25,855 bases of DNA from a virus, in the IMG/VR virus record IMGVR_UViG_3300023210_000187, positions 1-25,855 of that record; one strand, given 5' to 3'. Positions 10,914 to 25,220 of the stretch are shown in pieces. The first letter of the stretch is position 1. Each line of letters begins with the position of its first letter. Under the pieces are notes generated by a model. It did not search any database and was not told the DNA's origin. It saw only the letters and a list, made by a program, of their open reading frames with translations. The position numbers were made by a program, and so were the translations under genes.

Positions 10914-13145
10914 TCAATACGTGTATTTCGGTTTGCGCTTCGTGGCCCACGCCTTCTCGAAGCTTTTGTCGTACACAGCGTAGATGTAGTTGAGCATCCC
11001 TATCGTCTCCGCGACCGGGTTGCCGACGCCGGCGAATCTCTCGACGCGGGTCTTACCAGGCATGTACGTGTCTATGTTGGAGGGCTGGAGCTGCCCGATC
11101 CCGATCGCATGGCTGGGGTCGCTGTACTCAGTCCATGCCCGCACCTTTCCGTTCGCGAGCGTCTCTGTTTTTTCTTTCGCGGTCCGCTTCGAGATGCCGA
11201 AGTTATTGACCGAGGCTGAAGGGTCTGCGGCCTTGGCATCGAGCTGCGCCCACACGGTCGGCCATAGTGTCACGTTGCTGATCTTCCAGACTTTATTCGG
11301 ATACTTATAGTTCGGACGGCCGATCCAACCGTCGGACTCTCCTGGCACCTTTGCAGCAGTAGCGGTCGCCGGGACGCCGTAGATGATGTTCTCCATAAGG
11401 GTCAGCTCGTGATCTGTAAGCTCACGTCCCCATTTAGACAGCTTCGCAGCCTCGTCCAGCAGCGCGCGAATCGCGGCCCCCTTAGCGTACCGCACGCCTG
11501 TTGTTAGCCTGCTACCGACGACCGGCTGAGCCACCACAGGTGCGTCTCCTGTAACGCCACCGAACTCGACAGGTTTACCCAGCTCGTAGCGATCAAGCTC
11601 TGTGTTTAGCCGTGAGATAAACGTCTCTCCACCTGCCGCGAGTTCAGGCCCAACCCAGCCGCGTGAGACCGTTACGCTTGTGGCCGTTTGCGTCTCTGAC
11701 CAGCTGTGCGTTACGCCGTCAACGTAGTACCACTCATCCTGCGCAGGTGACGGCCCGTGGATATGTAGTTTCTGCCCTACGCGAATATCTGGGCGCAGGA
11801 TCAGATCAACAGTCCCCGTCAAGAACAGGTGGTTGAGGCACAGCCAATCCCGAATGCGTTCACGATACCGCGCGGAGACGCCGAGGAAGTCGCTATTGGA
11901 GCCGTCTAATGTCGTCGGCACGTACATTGTCTGCACGACGTGCCTACGGACACCGTGCGCTTGCATGGATTGTGGATTCCACAACGGCTGCTGAAAGCCC
12001 CGGAGTGCTGCGCCCAGGCTCTGCGTCAAGAGTGGCGTGACGTAGAAAGCGTTTCGTCGCGCGGCCCCTGAGCGCGCGACGCGCTTGCCACGAACCTGGC
12101 GCTCGGGCACCTCATACTCCGTCAGTTGTTCAAACCATGGACCACTGTCGATCGCCTCAAGCACACCGGGCTCGGATCTCCGTGAGTACGTCGGGAAGGG
12201 CTTGTCACGTAGGATCAGCGCCATCCGCGAGTCTCCAGCGCGCACCGACTCCATGTTCTTGAAGTACCGATCTTCGGGATGGAGCAGGTCACAGTAGAAG
12301 TCGCACAGCGCTAGGTCAGCCCAGGTCTGTAGCAGCTCCCAGAATACTCTGTCTGGCCCAGGGCCACTGAACGTCAGCGAGTTCACATGCTGACGCGGTG
12401 GGTCGTCTCGGATCCACGCTCGCGAAGCTGTGCCGTCAGGGCTGAAGCGCAGGTGATCAATGAAGCTGAGGGGGCTATCACCAATGCCGTTAAGGCGTGC
12501 CGACTTCATGCTATTGGGGACCTGCCAGTTCGCGCGCCCAAGTTCTGCAGCTGCGGAGAGGAAGGCGGTGAGCAGCTTCCCGACTGTCTCGCTTACGCTC
12601 GTAGGGATCCTATCGTCACCCTGTAGCACTGCGGCGTAGCCCTGTGCCGCGAGCACACCATCAGTGAAGGGATCGAAGTAGATCGGTGACAACTCAAAGA
12701 TCGACCCAAAAGCACGTCCGTAAATGTCGATGGTGACCGTAGTGGCACCGGAGCTTGTAGCTGTGTGCCGCAGCACAACTGAGTCGATGCGCCCACGCAT
12801 GACATGGAACGGCTTGTCGTGCATGAACAGCTCGATGTCGACCCAATCGTCATCGTGAACAATGCTCATAAAGTCCTGCGCCGCACGCCGTGTCGCCTTG
12901 GCGGTAAGCTGGAAAGCCCCACCGGTCGAGCCGACACGGTTTGCTACTAGAACCTTAGTCAACACAGGCTGCGTACGGTCCGCCCGGCTCTGCGGCTCCA
13001 GCACAATCTCTTCTTGGTCGAAGAAATCGCTAGCGGCCTGCTCGAAGGGCGTGCCCCCCGCATCAGCGTCGAGTGTGTATATTCGTACACGGGCACTGTT
13101 TCGGATGAACCCTTGAAACGTGCCGTTTGTGCTCACCGTCTCCAT
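10914..13145 (-). CDS. Baseplate hub protein with C-terminal lytic transglycosylase domain
   Basis: This is a 743-aa two-part protein. The N-terminal ~530 residues look like a gp27/XkdQ/gpD-type hub: GGAFQLTAKAT, IVHDDDWVDIELFMHDKPFHVMRGRIDSV (residues ~75-125), and later GTVDLILRPDIRVGQKL with EWYYVDGVTHSWSETQTATSVTVSRGW (about 440-500). The C terminus (about 570-743) matches phage lytic transglycosylases of the type with 'ES.GW.GRPN' and 'GLGQL...N': Glu603 in GESDGWIGRPN is the candidate catalytic acid, followed near residue 680 by AIGIGQLQPSNIDTY and then NPVAETIGMLNYIYAVY. The enzyme cuts the glycan strand of peptidoglycan as the tube passes. The ATG overlaps the tape measure stop (TGATG). 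Confidence 0.85.
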   Translation of the reverse strand: METVSTNGTFQGFIRNSARVRIYTLDADAGGTPFEQAASDFFDQEEIVLEPQSRADRTQPVLTKVLVANRVGSTGGAFQLTAKATRRAAQDFMSIVHDDDWVDIELFMHDKPFHVMRGRIDSVVLRHTATSSGATTVTIDIYGRAFGSIFELSPIYFDPFTDGVLAAQGYAAVLQGDDRIPTSVSETVGKLLTAFLSAAAELGRANWQVPNSMKSARLNGIGDSPLSFIDHLRFSPDGTASRAWIRDDPPRQHVNSLTFSGPGPDRVFWELLQTWADLALCDFYCDLLHPEDRYFKNMESVRAGDSRMALILRDKPFPTYSRRSEPGVLEAIDSGPWFEQLTEYEVPERQVRGKRVARSGAARRNAFYVTPLLTQSLGAALRGFQQPLWNPQSMQAHGVRRHVVQTMYVPTTLDGSNSDFLGVSARYRERIRDWLCLNHLFLTGTVDLILRPDIRVGQKLHIHGPSPAQDEWYYVDGVTHSWSETQTATSVTVSRGWVGPELAAGGETFISRLNTELDRYELGKPVEFGGVTGDAPVVAQPVVGSRLTTGVRYAKGAAIRALLDEAAKLSKWGRELTDHELTLMENIIYGVPATATAAKVPGESDGWIGRPNYKYPNKVWKISNVTLWPTVWAQLDAKAADPSASVNNFGISKRTAKEKTETLANGKVRAWTEYSDPSHAIGIGQLQPSNIDTYMPGKTRVERFAGVGNPVAETIGMLNYIYAVYDKSFEKAWATKRKPKYTY

Positions 13146-15859
13146 CAGTGCCCCACGAGTGAATGGATGTAGACAGCAATGTCACTGAGTGCAGCCGACG
13201 AGTTCTCCATAGCGGACTTGAGAGCCTCCGCCGAAGTTTCAAACTCAAGCATCGTCGGTGTCATCCGCAGCCCACGCCCTACGCCGAGTGCCTCCTCCTC
13301 TGCTGCGCGCGCTGCGTCGGGTGCTGTCATCCTAGCCGCACGATCTGCTAGAGGCTCATAGACTGCAGTAAACTCTTCCGGCGGCCTCGTGAACGTATCG
13401 CCGGTTATGAGCTTCTCGACAGCGCTACGGCCAAGTGGCGAGCCGGCTTTCTGCAGCGCTTGGAATGCGGTCTCCAGCCCTAAGCCTCTAGGGCCACGCA
13501 TGGACTCCTGCAGTAATCGCTGTACACCTGCGCCTGTAGGCCCTGACTCGGCGCGCATATACGCTTTCCGCAAGCCTTCGACCGAGAAGTCACCCCCCTG
13601 CCCGAAGCCATGCAGGGTGCGCAGCAGGAAGAAGTCCATCGGGTCTGCTGCGCCCTCCCGCGCTAGCTTCCTGCCGCCGCCAACAAGGCCCGCTGCTGCG
13701 CCCATACTTACTGCGCCGAGGCCCAGCCGACCACCACCGAGGGCTTCTGCGGCGCCGGCAAATCCAGCTACATCCAACGCGGTGCCGGTTATCCCTGCCC
13801 GCTGCCCCTGCAGCCCTATGTACTGAAGTCCGCGTTGGAGGTCGCCCTGCGTGAGTCCGAGACCGGTGAGCGCGTCCGCCGTCTCGTCGAGCAGCGCGCC
13901 GGGGTCTCTAGGCGACCGGACGATATAGCCACCTGCCGCCTCAGGTGTGAGGTTATAGGCCCTACGCGCCTGCAGTCCGAAAGTCTGCTGGCGGCGCCCA
14001 AAACGCCCCATCGTCAACGCTGACCGGCCGCTGCGCAGGGTTTGGCTTATAACGTCTAAGCTCTCTTCCGGTGTAAATCCTAGCTTTACTCCAACAGATT
14101 TAGGTCCAGTGAACATGTCGAATGGCGTAGTTATGCGGCGGCGCGCGCTGATGCCTCCACCACTAGGCGCGTTGATGTTGGCCAACGCGCCACCTGGAAG
14201 CGCCCCGGCAGCGCCGAGGTACATCTCCATCGTGCCTTGCGTGGGGACCATGTCACCGTCGATCAGACTTCTTGCGGAGGCCCCGCCAGTGAAGATGCCA
14301 CCAAGCCCCTGCGCCTGTCGGGAGAACGCAAGTGCTTGCTGTGTAGTATCCAGCGCAGCCTCTGCCGCGCCTCCCGCAGCTCCACCGAGGCCGCCGCCCA
14401 GGGCAGCCCCGAGCAGGGGGTTACCGCCCAGTGTTCCTAGCAGGCCACCTACAGCTGCACCGGCGCCGCCGAGCATGGCGGCTATACCTGACGGGCCTTG
14501 GAACGTACCGCGTATAGCCATTCCGGCGCCACCGGCAGCTGCGCCTGCGCCCAACCCCAGCGTGCGCATCGTTGCCGCTCTCTTCACAGCAGCAGCTGTT
14601 TTGGCGGCGTTTTGGGCTCTGACGCCGTCGGCGTAGCGCTTACGCCAATCCTTAGCGAAGCCCGCCGCTGCCGCCTCGTGCGCCGCGTCCTGCGCTGCGT
14701 GCACACGTGCAGCGGTAGGCATCCCAGACGCTCGCGTCTTATCCAACCGCCCTAACTGTTTATCGAACAGCGGGACGGTTACATCCTCAAACGGAGCGCC
14801 GACCACAGTCTTCGCCCGTGCTGCCGCCAGCGCGGGTCGCTCCATCCTCGCTTGTGTTCTAGCGAAGAACGGGATGGTGGCCTCTTCAAACGGGGCACCT
14901 ACAGCAGTCTTTGCGCGCGCTGCCGCAGCTGCCGCCCGCTCAGCAGGTCGCTCCATCTTCGCGAGCGTGCGCGCGAAGAACGGCACGGTCTTGGCTCTCG
15001 CAAACGGCATGACTGCCGCCTCAGTCTTCGCACCCTCACGACGAAGTTCTGGCCGTTCGATGCGCGCGAGCTGTCGTAGGAACAGCGGGCCCGTAAGGTC
15101 TGCTGTCGCTGCAGCGCCTACTCGCCCGCCGGCACCGGCGGGGGCGGCTAGGTCGGCAATGAGATGGGAGAAGGGGGCGGCGACGGTGCGCCCGCCGGCA
15201 GACCTTACGGGCCCGGCTAGGTCGGCAATGAGATGGGAGAAGGGGGCGGCGACGGTGGGAGGTAGCGCGCCGACGCTAGCTGCCATGCCGCGCGCTGCAT
15301 CAGCTGCGGCGCGGCCTGGCGCCGCAGCCGCCGCAAGCTGGCGTGTTCTGCTGGCTGAGACTGGCCCCTTCGAGGCGAAGTGCATCCTAAGCCCTGGCGG
15401 CAACGCCATCGCCGCAGGCAACCCAACGGCGCTCGATGCTGCCGCTGCGCCTCCTTGGCTAAGTCCTACTGGGCTGCCGAGAGCGGCAGCGACTGCGGCA
15501 GGTCCAGCGGCAGGTCCAGCGGCAAGCCCTGGCGCCAGCACCCTGGTGATAGGCGCGGCGCCGACTCCCCCTGCGCCACGTGCTCGTTGGGCTCCAGTTG
15601 AACTGCCGATACCGAAACCGGCGCCCCCAACTGCGCCGCCGGTGGCGCCAGCCAGCGCAGCGCCAAGATTCTTATCCTTGATCTTGGAAAGGGAGCCTTC
15701 GATGCTCTTGAGCGCGGTAGCAACGCCCTGTAATTGCTCTCCGACCCCACCAACATTGAGCGCGGCTCGGAGCTTATCCCCGAGGGCCTTGATGTTCTTG
15801 AGCGCAGCGTCATCTATCTTCGCGTCGATGAGCAGCGTGGTTTTGACTTGGCGAGTCAT
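13145..15859 (-). CDS. Tail tape measure protein
   Basis: At 904 aa this protein follows the chaperone pair and precedes the hub, which marks it as the tape measure. It is very rich in Ala, Gly and Pro. Residues 1-75 include a coiled-coil-like start (TLLIDAKIDDAALKNIKALGDKLRAAL). Residues ~80-200 are Ala/Gly/Pro low complexity. Residues ~200-245 carry a tandem 23-residue repeat, and ~250-375 four units with '(F/L)F.R...R.ERP'. Residues ~450-510 are long Gly/Ala hydrophobic stretches that could be membrane-interacting. The C-terminal half is more ordered. At roughly 0.15 nm per residue this implies a tail of about 135 nm (inference). The TGA overlaps the hub ATG (TGATG). AGAGGA lies about 9 bases before the start. 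Confidence 0.8.
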   Translation of the reverse strand: MTRQVKTTLLIDAKIDDAALKNIKALGDKLRAALNVGGVGEQLQGVATALKSIEGSLSKIKDKNLGAALAGATGGAVGGAGFGIGSSTGAQRARGAGGVGAAPITRVLAPGLAAGPAAGPAAVAAALGSPVGLSQGGAAAASSAVGLPAAMALPPGLRMHFASKGPVSASRTRQLAAAAAPGRAAADAARGMAASVGALPPTVAAPFSHLIADLAGPVRSAGGRTVAAPFSHLIADLAAPAGAGGRVGAAATADLTGPLFLRQLARIERPELRREGAKTEAAVMPFARAKTVPFFARTLAKMERPAERAAAAAARAKTAVGAPFEEATIPFFARTQARMERPALAAARAKTVVGAPFEDVTVPLFDKQLGRLDKTRASGMPTAARVHAAQDAAHEAAAAGFAKDWRKRYADGVRAQNAAKTAAAVKRAATMRTLGLGAGAAAGGAGMAIRGTFQGPSGIAAMLGGAGAAVGGLLGTLGGNPLLGAALGGGLGGAAGGAAEAALDTTQQALAFSRQAQGLGGIFTGGASARSLIDGDMVPTQGTMEMYLGAAGALPGGALANINAPSGGGISARRRITTPFDMFTGPKSVGVKLGFTPEESLDVISQTLRSGRSALTMGRFGRRQQTFGLQARRAYNLTPEAAGGYIVRSPRDPGALLDETADALTGLGLTQGDLQRGLQYIGLQGQRAGITGTALDVAGFAGAAEALGGGRLGLGAVSMGAAAGLVGGGRKLAREGAADPMDFFLLRTLHGFGQGGDFSVEGLRKAYMRAESGPTGAGVQRLLQESMRGPRGLGLETAFQALQKAGSPLGRSAVEKLITGDTFTRPPEEFTAVYEPLADRAARMTAPDAARAAEEEALGVGRGLRMTPTMLEFETSAEALKSAMENSSAALSDIAVYIHSLVGH
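14730..15105 (-). repeat. Four diverged ~37-residue repeats in the tape measure (ERP repeats)
   Basis: Four successive segments read 'G/V-P-L/F-F-x-R/K-x3-R/K-x-E/D-R/K-P', for example GPLFLRQLARIERPE, VPFFARTLAKMERPA, IPFFARTQARMERPA and VPLFDKQLGRLDK. Between units lie Ala-rich spacers with AKT and GAPFE. At DNA level the second and third units align at an offset of 111 bp. The last unit is the most diverged. Confidence 0.75.
15087..15214. repeat. 17-bp perfect inverted repeat inside the tape measure gene
   Basis: Bases 15087-15103 are the exact reverse complement of 15198-15214, with 94 bp between the arms. On the coding strand the arms give different peptides (AGPVRSAG-type and ADLTGP). 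The right arm touches the second 44-bp direct repeat. A CGCCGG-CA-CCGGCG palindrome (15127-15140) lies between the arms. It may record a local inversion or a template-switch event. Confidence 0.8.
15145..15257 (-). repeat. 44-bp perfect direct repeat inside the tape measure gene
   Basis: Bases 15145-15188 and 15214-15257 are identical over 44 positions and offset by 69 bp, an exact multiple of three. The encoded protein has two adjacent copies of a 23-residue unit beginning TVAAPFSHLIADLA (residues about 201-245), with diverged ends. This looks like an in-frame tandem duplication recent enough to keep identical codons. Confidence 0.9.
15497..15520 (-). repeat. 12-bp tandem repeat, two copies, in the tape measure gene
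   Basis: Bases 15497-15508 and 15509-15520 are identical (unit ggcaggtccagc), giving an AAGP-AAGP stretch in the low-complexity N-terminal part. A third, partial and diverged copy follows. Confidence 0.85.
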
Positions 15860-15897: not shown

Positions 15898-16241
15898 TCA
15901 TAAGCTGGGCATCTGCCCGGCAGCCAATGCGGCCTCAACCTCTTCGAGCCACTCATCCGTTGAGGAGGTCATCTCCTCACCAAGCGCCGTGTTGATGGCT
16001 GCGAGCTGTTCTTCGAGGTCTGCGCGCTCCCCGCCCGTACCGAGGCGCAAGTGCGCCTCGATCTCTGTGCGGCGCTCGTGCAAGTCTTGCAGTAGCTCCA
16101 CAATAAGATCGGCGTGCGTGCGGTCGCGGTACAGCGGATCGTTGATAGGCAGATTGTACTTTCCGGCCCACCAAGATTCGACCGTACCTAGTTCACTCTT
16201 GCGATTCCTGCGCGCCGTTGCCCTCAGTCGCGTCAAGTCGA
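15898..16241 (-). CDS. Tail assembly chaperone, downstream frame (gpT-like), reached by frameshift
   Basis: This frame lies +1 (equivalently -2) relative to the upstream chaperone. From GAC at 16239 to the TGA at 15898-15900 it encodes about 113 residues. A frameshift at TTT TTT C would give a fusion of about 278-279 aa. The content matches GT-type extensions: ESWWAGKYNLPINDPLYRDRT with a Trp pair and a 'P..DP' turn, then charged helices (ADLIVELLQDLHERRTEIEAHL, DEWLEEVEAALAAG). The only independent start is TTG at 16236, and no Shine-Dalgarno precedes it at a useful distance; an AGGAGG at 16267-16272 is about 30 bases away. I therefore read it as the frameshifted half. The extension probably recruits the tail tube, as T does in lambda. 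Confidence 0.7.
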
Positions 16242-16735
16242 AAAAAGTGGGACTCGTGAGCCCACACCTCCTGCCATACTGCGAACACTGCGTCTTGGTC
16301 GAGCACGTCGCGCAGGTCCTGAGCCCACTGCGGCCCTCGAAACGTCTTTCCGTCCTTGGACCACAGCGAATAAGACATGTGCGCGATGGCCTCGTTGAGC
16401 GCGCGGATCGTGGGCTCCATTGAATCGAACGCCATCCCGGCAGCGAACCGGGCTTTGAGCGCTGCGGCCTGCTGATTCTCGCCCGTCGTCAGGATCCGAT
16501 TCGTAAAGGTCCCCTCATACACTTTGCCGCGCTTCGTCTTGTGGCGAAGCGTGAACATGTACTCCTCGTGGTCCTTTGGATCGTGACCTGAGACCTGCGC
16601 CTCCTCAGCCTCTTCCAGGCCCAGAATCACAGGCGAGTTTACAACCTCCGCGACATCTTGCTTGAGCTGCTCAGTACTCGCGAGCGCCTGTGCCGCAGCT
16701 GCGGGGGCTCGTTTGGGTCGGTAAGTCTTAGCCAT
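16193..16735 (-). CDS. Tail assembly chaperone, upstream frame (gpG-like)
   Basis: This 180-aa protein lies between the tube and the tape measure, the place held by lambda gpG-type chaperones. It has an Ala/Gln-rich N terminus, an acidic stretch, a beta-like core (YMFTLRHKTKRGKVYEGTFTNRIL) and helices (NQQAAALKARFAAGMAF, TIRALNEAIAHMSYSLW) ending in an Ala/Glu/Gln tail. GGAGGG at 16745-16750 sits 9 bases upstream of the ATG. Its last 44 bases overlap a second open frame that continues into a T-like domain. TTT TTT CGA (16246-16238) lies in the overlap. Such proteins bind the tape measure during tail assembly and are not in the virion. The intergenic 16736-16785 holds only the ribosome site and an A/T-rich patch. 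Confidence 0.75.
   Translation of the reverse strand: MAKTYRPKRAPAAAAQALASTEQLKQDVAEVVNSPVILGLEEAEEAQVSGHDPKDHEEYMFTLRHKTKRGKVYEGTFTNRILTTGENQQAAALKARFAAGMAFDSMEPTIRALNEAIAHMSYSLWSKDGKTFRGPQWAQDLRDVLDQDAVFAVWQEVWAHESHFFRLDATEGNGAQESQE
16238..16246 (-). promoter_or_regulatory. Programmed +1 (or -2) ribosomal frameshift site
   Basis: In the zero frame the mRNA reads CAC TTT TTT CGA. A +1 slip of tRNA-Phe from TTT to the overlapping TTC (16242-16240) keeps cognate pairing, indeed better for a GAA anticodon, and leaves CGA, a codon often decoded slowly, in the A site. The new frame continues GAC TTG ACG. A -2 slip by a single tRNA onto TTT would also reach it. The frame arithmetic excludes -1, the lambda-type shift. 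An AGGAGG lies 20 bases before the run. Confidence 0.65.
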
Positions 16736-16785: not shown

Positions 16786-17256
16786 CTAGATATTCTCCGC
16801 ACCAGCGTCAGCAACTCGGGTCGCTACGAACGCGACGTCCTCACCAACAACACTGCGCGCACCGAACGTCAGATTGTGGCTCGTTACGCGCACGCCGTAC
16901 AAGCGCACCAACGGGCCTGCGTTCCGGTCAATGATGTCCGCGTTCATAGAGCCCTGCAGCAGGACATTCTCCAGAAACTCGTCAGAGCCTGCGCCGAACG
17001 TCGGGAAGTAATTCAAGCCCTTCAACGACTTTTGGATCAGATACACCCGACTTGCGGTGAACGACACATCATAGGACACCGGAACGTGCTCAGCGATCTC
17101 TAGCTGGTCCAGCACAGAGATTGCGTCGTACGAGATCGTCTCGGAATACGATGCGATTGTAGCGTAACCGACGTCCTGGCCTTTGAGCTGCAGCCTGACG
17201 CGCGACCCTGTCGCGACTCGACTAACACCGTTCAGATTATCAACGGTTACTGCCAT
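16786..17256 (-). CDS. Tail tube protein
   Basis: This 156-aa beta-rich protein lies directly downstream of the sheath, the canonical place for the tube of a contractile tail. Features that fit the tube fold are RVRLQLKGQDVGYATIASYSE (two strands and a turn), YDAISVLDQLEIAEHVPVSYDVSFTASRVYL (a loop then long strands) and the C-terminal VRVTSHNLTFGARSVVGEDVAFVATRV. The family (gp19/XkdM-like) is usually about 140-190 aa, so the size is normal. AAGGAG at 17263-17268 is 6 bases upstream of the ATG, one of the strongest ribosome sites here, as expected for a highly expressed tube. Hexamers of this protein stack to form the channel inside the sheath. Confidence 0.8.
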   Translation of the reverse strand: MAVTVDNLNGVSRVATGSRVRLQLKGQDVGYATIASYSETISYDAISVLDQLEIAEHVPVSYDVSFTASRVYLIQKSLKGLNYFPTFGAGSDEFLENVLLQGSMNADIIDRNAGPLVRLYGVRVTSHNLTFGARSVVGEDVAFVATRVADAGAENI

Positions 17257-17280: not shown

Positions 17281-20031
17281 TCAGGCTGCTGTTTGCGAGA
17301 CAGTTACGAGATGAACCGTGGAGCGCACGAAGTTCACCGGAATGATAGGCGCGATCTCCACAGACACGTCCATGATGTCCGCGTTCAGCTCTACCGCGAG
17401 CGCTCGATAAGTCACGATGATGCCCTGCGTACGCAGCTCATCGAGAATGCTGTCCGCAACACCCTTAGCTGCGTTCATCGTGCCCGCGAAACCAGGCTCG
17501 CCGACAATGGCGTCCAGCGCGTTGCGGAAGTTGAACACCGCGAAGTTCGCAGCCTCGTTGACCGACGCCTCTTGGAAGGCGAGGTTCGTAGACTGCAAGT
17601 ACGTTGTAATGTTCCGCACGCAGCGCCGCCCTGTACGGTGCGCCTCCATGAACCAGAGTCCTGCCTGGATCATCTCATGCGCGTCGTCAACAGGGTTCCA
17701 GGTAGAGTCTTGCCCAAGGGCGACGACGTTAGCGACCTTGCGCGTCAGCGAGACACCAACCTGCGAGCCCGCTTGCATCCCCGCGCCGATGACGCCCTGG
17801 AACCACGGCAGGAACGTGGTCAGATCGCCAGCAGTGCTGTACCGCTGAATCGTCTGACAGCACGCTCGGATGTGCCGCGAGTTGAGCGACAGCGCCTGCG
17901 ACTTCGCAGAAGACTTCGCCGGCAGCGCGTTCGTCGGGTTGTTGCTCGCGTCCAAGGCGCTGAGCCCGACGAAAGCGTCGCGCTCACTGCGACCCTCACC
18001 AGACATGTAGATGCAGTGCGCGTTGAGCGCGGAGTGTACACCGGGCATCCCGGTCAGCACGACGATGGTGTTGACGTCGATCTCCTTGAGCAGGTCCAGC
18101 GCCGTCTGGTAGTCCGCTGCCGTTGCGGTGCCCTCGCTGCCACCAGACAAGAACTGGTCCGTCACGTTGGCCGGCGGCTGCCCCGAACCCGACTGCGCGG
18201 TCGTGGCTGCCAGGTTCCAGGCGCCACCGGGGTTGGTGACCAGAGCTGTAACCGCGCCGGTCGCGGACTTCGGTGTAAGCGATGTGATCGTCACAGCCGC
18301 GCCGGAAGCCGACGCGGAAGCGTAGGTATGCACAGGCTCCCCGCCTACATCCACAGTCGTGTTGTTGACTGCGGCGGCCAGGTTGGTGGCGTGCGTAGGC
18401 AGGTCTGCGGCGTCTCCTACAAAGGCGATCGTCTGGCCGTCGATGCTGATATCCCAAGTACCAGCGTCAGCGCCAGTAAAGGTAATCGTGTCCACCCTGC
18501 GCGTAAACGCAATGCGCGCCGCGTTGGTCAACGTGGACGTGCTGTCCAAGAAGCCTTCGATCGCGTTGAGGACTGCCGCGAAGCCTCCCGTCGAGCCGTC
18601 GATGTCCACCGAGATGCTGGTGAGGTCGAGCTTCGCCGGGTTGAGGAGCGTCTGTCCCGTGCGCGTCGTCCAAGTGAACCCAAACGTGTCAACGCCAACG
18701 TCCACTTGGCGTGCGTTGAAGTAGTCCGCGCACTTCTGCAACGTGTCGTGTACCGTGTTCGAGGTCTCAGCCGCCGTCGCGTAGACCGTAGCGGCCCGCG
18801 CTGCGGCGACGTCACCGAGCACGATGTAGTCGATCTGCGTCCAGGTCTTGGCTGTCCGCACCGGGGTGGTGCCCGCCATCGTGACCGCCTCGGACTGCGC
18901 AGCGCCATTCGCGCTCAAGCCCCACAACTGGATCGACGGAGTGCCTGCGCCGTCCAGCTCCAGCAGCACCGTCTGGTTAGCGACGGTCATGGTGGACGCA
19001 GCTACAAGGCCGGCGTAGGCATCACCCGCTGCGACCGTGATGAGCGGTATCAGCGTCGGGTTCTGGATAGTGATGGCCTGGTCAGTCGCCACGCCACTAC
19101 CTGAAGTCAGGTCCACATACGCGCCGAAGACCTCCGTGAACTGCAGCACTGTGGCCACCGGGTTCGCGTTGGCGTTAGTGAGGTCGAGTGTGACCGTCTC
19201 ACGGATAGGATCGCCGCTCGCGTCTACGCCGTAAAGGGTCACGGTCTTACCGCGCATGGCTGCGCTGTCCACAGCCGCAAGCACCGTAATGATCACTGTC
19301 CCGCCAGCCGGAGCAGCGATATCGCCGTCCAGGCCACCTTCGTCGCGCTCACCGTGCGCCAAGATCCCGGTCGAACGCACAGACGCGACCATGCGGTCCC
19401 AGCCGAACGGCGCCGAGGTCGGCTCGTCGTACTGAAGCTCGAACATGGCGGCTTCTTGGTTGGTCTGTGCGCCGTCAACGAGTCCGAGGTCGTCCGCCGT
19501 CTCCGTAGTAGTCTCGAACTTGACCGTAACGAGTTTGCCGACCTGCGAGGAGTTGATACGGGCGTTGTTCGTAGCGGCGCCGACAGAGATGTTGACCTGC
19601 TCAGTGAACGCGCCCCAATCGGCAGACCGGATCGTAAGGCTGTCCCCGATAGCGTTGCTGAGCGTCGCTGTAGACTGCGTCGCCTGGTTGACCTTCATAG
19701 CGACCACTTCGCGCGCGCCAGCCGGGACGGCTGCATCCGAGGAAGGCTCGAACACCATGGCGCACGCTTCGCGCATGTCGCCGGAGCGGAACGTGCTGCG
19801 GACGTTCTGTGGTTTCTTGAGCACGATGAAGTCATCGACCGCCCAGGCGCGAGATACGCCGTCCTTGTCGAGAGTTGTTGACGCTGCAGGGCGCCCACCG
19901 ACACCGGTGCCGAGAATCGCCACGCGCCCAGAGGCGCTGAGCCCTGCCTGCTCCAGCCCAGATGCGTCGATGCGAGAGTACGAGCCAGGGACTGCGCTGA
20001 AAAAGCCGTCGAAGAAGATCGTGGTTGCCAT
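17281..20031 (-). CDS. Tail sheath protein, enlarged with inserted beta domains
   Basis: This 916-aa protein is the contractile sheath subunit. The N terminus (FFDGFFSAVPGSYSRIDAS, then SGRVAILGTGVGGRP) is typical of sheath proteins. Residues ~630-700 (ADYQTALDLLKEIDVNTIVVL onwards) match the conserved middle of the sheath fold. The C-terminal ~150 residues carry WNPVDDAHEMIQAGL, VRNITTYLQS and the terminal strands that link neighbouring subunits. Most sheath proteins I know are about 350-700 aa. The extra length comes from two similar Ig-like modules (about 240-330 and 335-420, each with 'V..YG/WG.(D/S).(S/N)G....E.VT(L/M)') and another beta module at ~510-625. GGAG lies 10 bases before the ATG. 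These inserts probably decorate the sheath surface. Confidence 0.9.
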   Translation of the reverse strand: MATTIFFDGFFSAVPGSYSRIDASGLEQAGLSASGRVAILGTGVGGRPAASTTLDKDGVSRAWAVDDFIVLKKPQNVRSTFRSGDMREACAMVFEPSSDAAVPAGAREVVAMKVNQATQSTATLSNAIGDSLTIRSADWGAFTEQVNISVGAATNNARINSSQVGKLVTVKFETTTETADDLGLVDGAQTNQEAAMFELQYDEPTSAPFGWDRMVASVRSTGILAHGERDEGGLDGDIAAPAGGTVIITVLAAVDSAAMRGKTVTLYGVDASGDPIRETVTLDLTNANANPVATVLQFTEVFGAYVDLTSGSGVATDQAITIQNPTLIPLITVAAGDAYAGLVAASTMTVANQTVLLELDGAGTPSIQLWGLSANGAAQSEAVTMAGTTPVRTAKTWTQIDYIVLGDVAAARAATVYATAAETSNTVHDTLQKCADYFNARQVDVGVDTFGFTWTTRTGQTLLNPAKLDLTSISVDIDGSTGGFAAVLNAIEGFLDSTSTLTNAARIAFTRRVDTITFTGADAGTWDISIDGQTIAFVGDAADLPTHATNLAAAVNNTTVDVGGEPVHTYASASASGAAVTITSLTPKSATGAVTALVTNPGGAWNLAATTAQSGSGQPPANVTDQFLSGGSEGTATAADYQTALDLLKEIDVNTIVVLTGMPGVHSALNAHCIYMSGEGRSERDAFVGLSALDASNNPTNALPAKSSAKSQALSLNSRHIRACCQTIQRYSTAGDLTTFLPWFQGVIGAGMQAGSQVGVSLTRKVANVVALGQDSTWNPVDDAHEMIQAGLWFMEAHRTGRRCVRNITTYLQSTNLAFQEASVNEAANFAVFNFRNALDAIVGEPGFAGTMNAAKGVADSILDELRTQGIIVTYRALAVELNADIMDVSVEIAPIIPVNFVRSTVHLVTVSQTAA

Positions 20032-24417: not shown

Positions 24418-24642
24418 CTACTGGCTGACGCGGTTCCAGATCTCGTCGTGGATGACGTAGAGCACGATCTTGGCGACGCCGTCAATGAGCCCCGCCGTCC
24501 CACCAAGCGCCAGGGCCGCGTTCATCTGGATCCCCTCTCCGGCCAAAGCCGTGAACACGATCAGCCCGGTGATGGCGCTCGCGATGACGCGCCAGGTGAT
24601 CGACTTCCATACGGACTGCGGAACGGACTTCAAGAACTTCAT
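24418..24642 (-). CDS. Small membrane protein, DUF2061-like
   Basis: This 74-aa protein shows the layout of the DUF2061 family. A short N-terminal amphipathic segment leads into KSITWRVIAS (residues 13-22). A first membrane helix spans about 17-36 and a second about 44-62. The C terminus is KIVLYVIHDEIWNR, matching the family's conserved K-x3-Y-x2-HE/D-x-W pattern. The start is well supported: AAGGAG at 24647-24652 sits 4 bases before the ATG and overlaps the TAA of the methyltransferase. DUF2061 proteins are bacterial inner-membrane proteins with no settled biochemical role as far as I know. In a phage, a two-helix protein of this size could be a holin-like or envelope-modifying factor, but that is inference and the position away from any visible endolysin does not help. 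Confidence 0.75.
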   Translation of the reverse strand: MKFLKSVPQSVWKSITWRVIASAITGLIVFTALAGEGIQMNAALALGGTAGLIDGVAKIVLYVIHDEIWNRVSQ

Positions 24643-24650
24643 GCTACTCC

Positions 24651-25220
24651 TTACCGCCGGACGCCCTTGAACAGGAAGATCTGTTTGGTGGCGCTAACTG
24701 GAAGCTGCTGGACCAACCTCATAGTCAAAATGTCTTGGTAGCGCGCCTCAGCCGCTGCGGGTGCCGGGAAGACACGCACATGGCCTGCGCTCTGGAATGT
24801 AGGGACGCTGAAGACAAGTGACGCCCCCGTGGGGAGTTGCTGGAGAAGCTCGCGGTCCTTCTCGATGTGCTCAAGCACCTCAAGGCACACGAATTGGCTG
24901 CCTTGCGGCAACGCCAGGCTCGTAAGATCAGCGCGCGCAAAGTGACAATCAGCGAGCTGCCGCTTAGCTGCCTGCGCAATCGCCACCGCAGAGAAGTCGT
25001 AGCCAGTGTATGGCGCCGCGCTCACGGTGCGCAGTACCGTAGCAAACTGCCCAGGGCCGCAGCCGAGGTCTACGACAGGTACAGCCTTGGACAGCTGCGC
25101 AGCCGCCGCTCTCCACAGATCTGAGTAGACAGGGACGTTCAAGGCGTCGCGGAAGTAGAACCCCTTGTAGCCGCCTCGTGTGTAGATGCGGTCGTAGAAC
25201 GCGGCCTCGTCCGTACTCAA
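24651..25220 (-). CDS. Class I SAM-dependent methyltransferase
   Basis: This 189-aa protein has a clear Rossmann-type SAM-binding core. Motif I is VVDLGCGPGQF at residues 49-59. The acidic end of strand 2 is GYDFS at 73-77. Residues 110-119 (FVCLEVLEHI) match the post-motif seen in UbiE/UbiG-like and Methyltransf_23/25 families. Residues 136-151 contain SVP followed by GHVRVF, also typical of that group. It starts at TTG inside the upstream stop (TTGA), which points to translational coupling with the glycosyltransferase-like gene. The length is normal for a minimal domain with no separate target-recognition domain. The substrate cannot be read from sequence. The lack of DNA-methyltransferase motifs (no DPPY or PC) argues against DNA methylation, and the neighbour suggests a sugar, small molecule or virion protein. 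Confidence 0.85.
   Translation of the reverse strand: MSTDEAAFYDRIYTRGGYKGFYFRDALNVPVYSDLWRAAAAQLSKAVPVVDLGCGPGQFATVLRTVSAAPYTGYDFSAVAIAQAAKRQLADCHFARADLTSLALPQGSQFVCLEVLEHIEKDRELLQQLPTGASLVFSVPTFQSAGHVRVFPAPAAAEARYQDILTMRLVQQLPVSATKQIFLFKGVRR

Follow-up and report, generated by a model that had tools for sequence, protein, structure and literature searches.

Two tail assembly products, gpG and gpGT, are obtained in phage lambda via a -1 slip on a heptamer; their roles have been reviewed (PMC5009743). A +1 frameshift in tail chaperone genes is also already known as a kind: the record for SPO1 (Herelleviridae) annotates +1 slippage between gp10.2 and gp11.1, that for Adastra gives a '+1 frameshift product', and the chaperone shift of the Bacillus phage Moonbeam has been published as an 'unusual +1 frameshift' (PMC4299906). 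A +1 tail chaperone shift was suggested for the haloarchaeal virus HSTV-2 (PMC5009743) and further cases occur among SEA-PHAGES annotations (PRFect, PMC10885494). The Listeria phages PSA, A118 and A500 have +1 frameshifts in structural genes (PMC5009743), but these differ from the present case in using a CCC proline site and in affecting genes for capsid or tail shaft. For +1 frameshifts in general there is no accepted motif (PRFect, PMC10885494).

The locus described here is in a 25,855-base IMG/VR fragment (the window), which carries a myovirus tail module on its minus strand; all features below are on this strand. PHROGs matches identified a tail sheath protein (phrog_279, 17281–20031) and a tail tube protein (phrog_985, 16786–17256), the latter also matching Herelleviridae tube proteins by tblastn, and a baseplate J protein is encoded in the same module. 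Next to the tube gene is a frame of 180 aa with an ATG start (16193–16735), assigned by position, fold and profile as the short, gpG-like tail assembly chaperone. A second frame, listed as an ORF of 112 aa from a TTG start (15898–16236), follows, and directly downstream of it is the probable tape measure gene (13145–15859), assigned by position, length and a gene order as in SPO1, as its product has no family match in Pfam or PHROGs. The chaperone pair lies between the tail tube and tape measure genes, and the order of sheath, tube, chaperone, +1 frame and tape measure is that of SPO1. Lambda has its chaperone frameshift at the same position among the tail genes and follows the same two-product logic. 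The sheath protein has 916 aa, of which only the C-terminal residues 513–914 fall within the best-scoring stretch of the match to the tail sheath profile, implying a large additional region relative to the sheaths of about 570 aa in SPO1-like phages.

Neither chaperone belongs to a family in Pfam or PHROGs, and for the first chaperone a tblastn search of the phage collection gave no match and a PDB fold search nothing significant. Its AlphaFold model (mean pLDDT 76), however, matched Herelleviridae chaperones in a Foldseek search of BFVD, those of the Lactobacillus phages LpeD, LP65 and LfeInf, the LfeInf protein carrying the name tapemeasure chaperone. Comparison with a profile of 18 Herelleviridae chaperones gave a single-comparison p of 0.0007; the match spans most of the conserved domain and places the slip-site Phe within one column. 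The second chaperone matched its Herelleviridae counterpart weakly (p 0.007), and the tube protein shows distant similarity to Herelleviridae tubes. Homology with the SPO1 module is thus indicated by the tube, by profile and fold for the first chaperone, and by this p value only for the second. SPO1 differs from the window in host and sheath, and the chaperone similarity is detectable by profiles and fold only.

The initial annotation proposed that the chaperone frames overlap by 44 bases and are joined by a +1 slip of tRNA-Phe from TTT to TTC, with a -2 slip as an alternative. Both ORFs are present at the positions it gave and its arithmetic is correct: codons start at 1 mod 3 in the first frame and 0 mod 3 in the second, so that a -1 slip cannot join them and the step has to be +1 or -2. 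A lambda-type -1 step on a slippery heptamer is also ruled out by the -1 frame itself, which closes two codons after the stop of the first frame. The 44-base overlap exists but corresponds only to the distance from the TTG, as the second frame is open for 98 codons upstream. On the coding strand the site reads GAG TCC CAC TTT TTT CGA CTT GAC, with the proposed slip site TTT CGA at 16238–16243 and a run of six T at 16241–16246.

Homologous loci were collected, giving 51 distinct loci made up of this lineage, 23 Herelleviridae (Maine, near-identical to K, was not counted separately) and 21 Gram-negative-type myoviruses. The IMG/VR relatives L004–L009 and L017–L019 were found by tube and chaperone searches. 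The Gram-negative group, phages of about 90 kb infecting Pseudomonas, Bordetella and Aeromonas, was found through the sheath and comprises Touem01, PHB04, Dolphis, ST4 and 17 further distinct IMG/VR loci. L045 was left out because of a tblastn match split into two pieces and a misread frame. As slip codon we took the final in-frame TTT ahead of the stop that has a C (or TTC) after it, a rule that finds one by design; the control was the same aligned F-R position in the alignments, where a TTC would have shown.

In every locus examined (51 distinct) the second chaperone is in the +1 frame. The slip codon is TTT in 51/51, while Phe codons elsewhere in these genes are split between TTT (119/255) and TTC (136). 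Under independence the log10 probability of an all-TTT site is -4.4, -5.1 and -13.0 in the three groups, values that are overstated because the loci are related, although the bias has the same direction in each group. TTT makes up only 25% of Phe codons in the window (CGA is 12% of Arg codons) yet is invariant across the 51 distinct loci, which places the site beyond chance. In close relatives, every other Phe codon of the L004 gene is TTC, and TTT accounts for just 2/79 Phe codons in the L006 locus. The next codon is CG(A/C/T) in 48 loci (CGC 24, CGA 15, CGT 9), CAA in two and TTC in one; codon use would predict about 7 CGG, but none was found.

The relatives read TTC TTT CGA (L004, L006), TAC TTT CGA (L007, L009), ACG TTT CGC (L019) and ATG TTT TTC (L017, L018), and TCC TTT CGT is also among their sites. 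Among the Herelleviridae, 21 of the 23 loci have TTT CGT, CGC or CGA, SPO1 itself having TTT CGT, the same slip codon followed by C as in the window. The other two, Moonbeam and Alsa_2, have TTT CAA. Moonbeam thus differs from the window in the codon after TTT, but its +1 shift is at the same TTT, the annotated slippage base (48971) coinciding with the third T of the codon identified here. In the Gram-negative group every locus has a +1 frame and reads TTT CGC, CGA or CGT; in public records their genes appear as separate ORFs, mostly hypothetical proteins. The alignment of homologues that the initial annotation had recommended therefore bears out the TTT. It does not bear out the T-run, which occurs in this window only among the loci compared and is incidental, nor a specific part for CGA as a "slow codon", as CGC, CGT and twice CAA stand in the same place. 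The kept element is TTT followed by C, and by these alignments the exact slip spot is common to a very wide range of contractile-tailed phages.

After a +1 slip tRNA-Phe can re-pair at all loci checked; the codon it meets is UUC in 50 loci and UUU in one (the L017/L018 pair). This agrees with the originally proposed +1 slip from TTT to TTC, giving two products from one message. The alternative, in which tRNA-Phe slips two bases backwards along the T-run to give the junction HFFFD, is permitted by the frame geometry, and the window's T-run would allow perfect re-pairing; a -2 shift is used by phage Mu (PMC5009743). Such re-pairing, however, is possible in only 1/31 sites checked, that of the window, with a mismatch at all the others, and the T-run is absent in the close relatives L004–L009. 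A conserved Mu-type -2 re-pairing is ruled out by these figures: the -2 slip cannot be the common route, and would need a mechanism private to this phage, which makes it highly improbable. The homopolymer might instead suggest that RNA polymerase, rather than the ribosome, slips on the six T, but the run is short and is missing in all relatives, which keep TTT C alone, so that the chance of this is negligible.

It was also considered whether the second frame is translated as a separate protein, either starting at the TTG (16236) or re-initiating behind the first stop. The TTG exists, and many public records list two ORFs. As the initial annotation had observed, however, TTG is the only start available and no ribosome site was found before it, leaving the second frame of the window with no credible start. 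In L007, L009, K, Twort, P200, EF24C and others there is no ATG, GTG or TTG in the +1-frame overlap, and in L007 and L009 the first in-frame start lies past the beginning of the conserved part. Conservation of the +1-frame protein sets in immediately behind the slip codon (8 loci), and separate translation would leave the invariant TTT unexplained. L017 and L018 speak for it: in these contigs of about 103 kb, AAGGAGGT followed by an ATG is present in the +1 frame within the chaperone overlap (L017 3323–3340, L018 3299–3316), which together with TTT TTC at the slip position possibly means that a separate start has replaced frameshifting there. Frameshifting may therefore not be universal, but for the window two separate proteins appear very unlikely.

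A +1 frameshift thus very probably yields a short and a long chaperone from one message, as judged from the comparison of sequences. We infer that slipping occurs, as well as its rate and the functions of the chaperones, as follows. The majority of ribosomes would continue to the TGA at 16195–16193 and release the short chaperone. In a minority, peptidyl-tRNA-Phe would be on UUU (16243–16241) with CGA (Arg) as the next codon in the A site, and a one-base forward slip would allow it to re-pair on UUC (16242–16240) and continue with GAC TTG ACG. The predicted fusion product has 165 + 113 = 278 aa, with ...SHFF joined to DLTRLR, and its extra part would be the second chaperone domain (15898–16239, +1 frame, 113 codons and a stop), recognised by conservation after the slip and the weak profile match. 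By analogy with gpG and gpGT, the short form may coat the tape measure protein and the long form recruit tail tube subunits; the lambda shift itself differs, being -1 on a heptamer where that of the window would be +1 on UUU_C.

In the window a +1 slip at either of the two adjacent TTT codons gives the identical peptide HFFD, so mass spectrometry can distinguish +1 (HFFD) from -2 (HFFFD) but not between the two +1 positions. There is a second TTT CGA pair at codon 132 of the first chaperone (16337–16342), and the +1 frame is open from there as well. This pair was rejected as a slip site because it is not conserved, L004 and L006 having TTC CGC and TTC CGT.

No clear stimulator of the slip was found in the window. 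A Shine-Dalgarno-like sequence, AGGAGGTG (16265–16272), is located about 21–23 nt upstream of the slip codon, but its role is doubtful, as for this gene it does not stand out against synonymous codon shuffles. In prfB, which encodes bacterial release factor 2, a Shine-Dalgarno is found about 3 nt upstream of the frameshift site. Like the proposed event, the prfB shift is a +1 slip of one P-site tRNA, but it has a stop codon in the A site and serves autoregulation, whereas here there is a sense codon and a tail-assembly product. According to a review, UUU_U is the prfB site in a minority of species. With CGA in the A site and the Shine-Dalgarno-like sequence 21 nt away, the window does not have a prfB-type shift.

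Across the relatives, anti-Shine-Dalgarno pairing is above shuffles from about -30 to -13 in this lineage and the Herelleviridae, and from about -18 to -1 in the Gram-negative group, and flat elsewhere; the latter position is close to the prfB arrangement and the former is not. The signal is missing in several loci (K, Terranova, LysYB1, Adastra). As the loci are related and several are without it, this enrichment is a lead and not a result. The AGGAGG about 20 bases upstream that had been pointed out originally thus has partial statistical support in relatives, while in the window it is ordinary against shuffles and offers no clear mechanism. No conserved downstream RNA structure was shared among the loci folded (window, L004, L019, SPO1, L007, L009, K). 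Downstream folding in the window was not exceptional against shuffles (z +0.3 and -0.7), L004, L019 and SPO1 behaved likewise, and L007 and L009 were marginal. In Staphylococcus phage K (L022, 7328–7427), alone among the loci folded, the RNA right after the slip site is far more stably folded than its shuffles (z -4.5).

A literature search that did not extend to subscription papers (e.g. the SPO1 genome paper) found no description of the shared UUU_CG(U/C/A) signal or of its extension to phages infecting Pseudomonas, Bordetella and Aeromonas. It is tempting to speculate, although the odds are somewhat against the full proposal, that UUU_CG(U/C/A) is an ancient dedicated +1 signal of contractile-tailed phages of Gram-positive and Gram-negative hosts, that the avoidance of CGG means the A-site codon must be read by an inosine-containing tRNA-Arg, and that an upstream Shine-Dalgarno-like element at a lineage-specific distance tunes the rate. 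The presence of UUU_C in 50/51 distinct loci of very diverged phages offers a general +1 motif, with which annotators could unite chaperone genes that at present appear as two hypothetical proteins. The natural variants CGU, CGC, CGA and CAA, with no CGG, are material for studying the role of the A-site codon in +1 slipping.

No tRNA genes were found in the window. A contig of an L007/L008-type phage (L020, PBPC01000005.1) has been binned with a Gemmatimonadetes MAG, which might represent the host. The window also has, at the late module's upstream end, a methyltransferase-like gene (24651–25220) beside that of a DUF2061 membrane protein (24418–24642).
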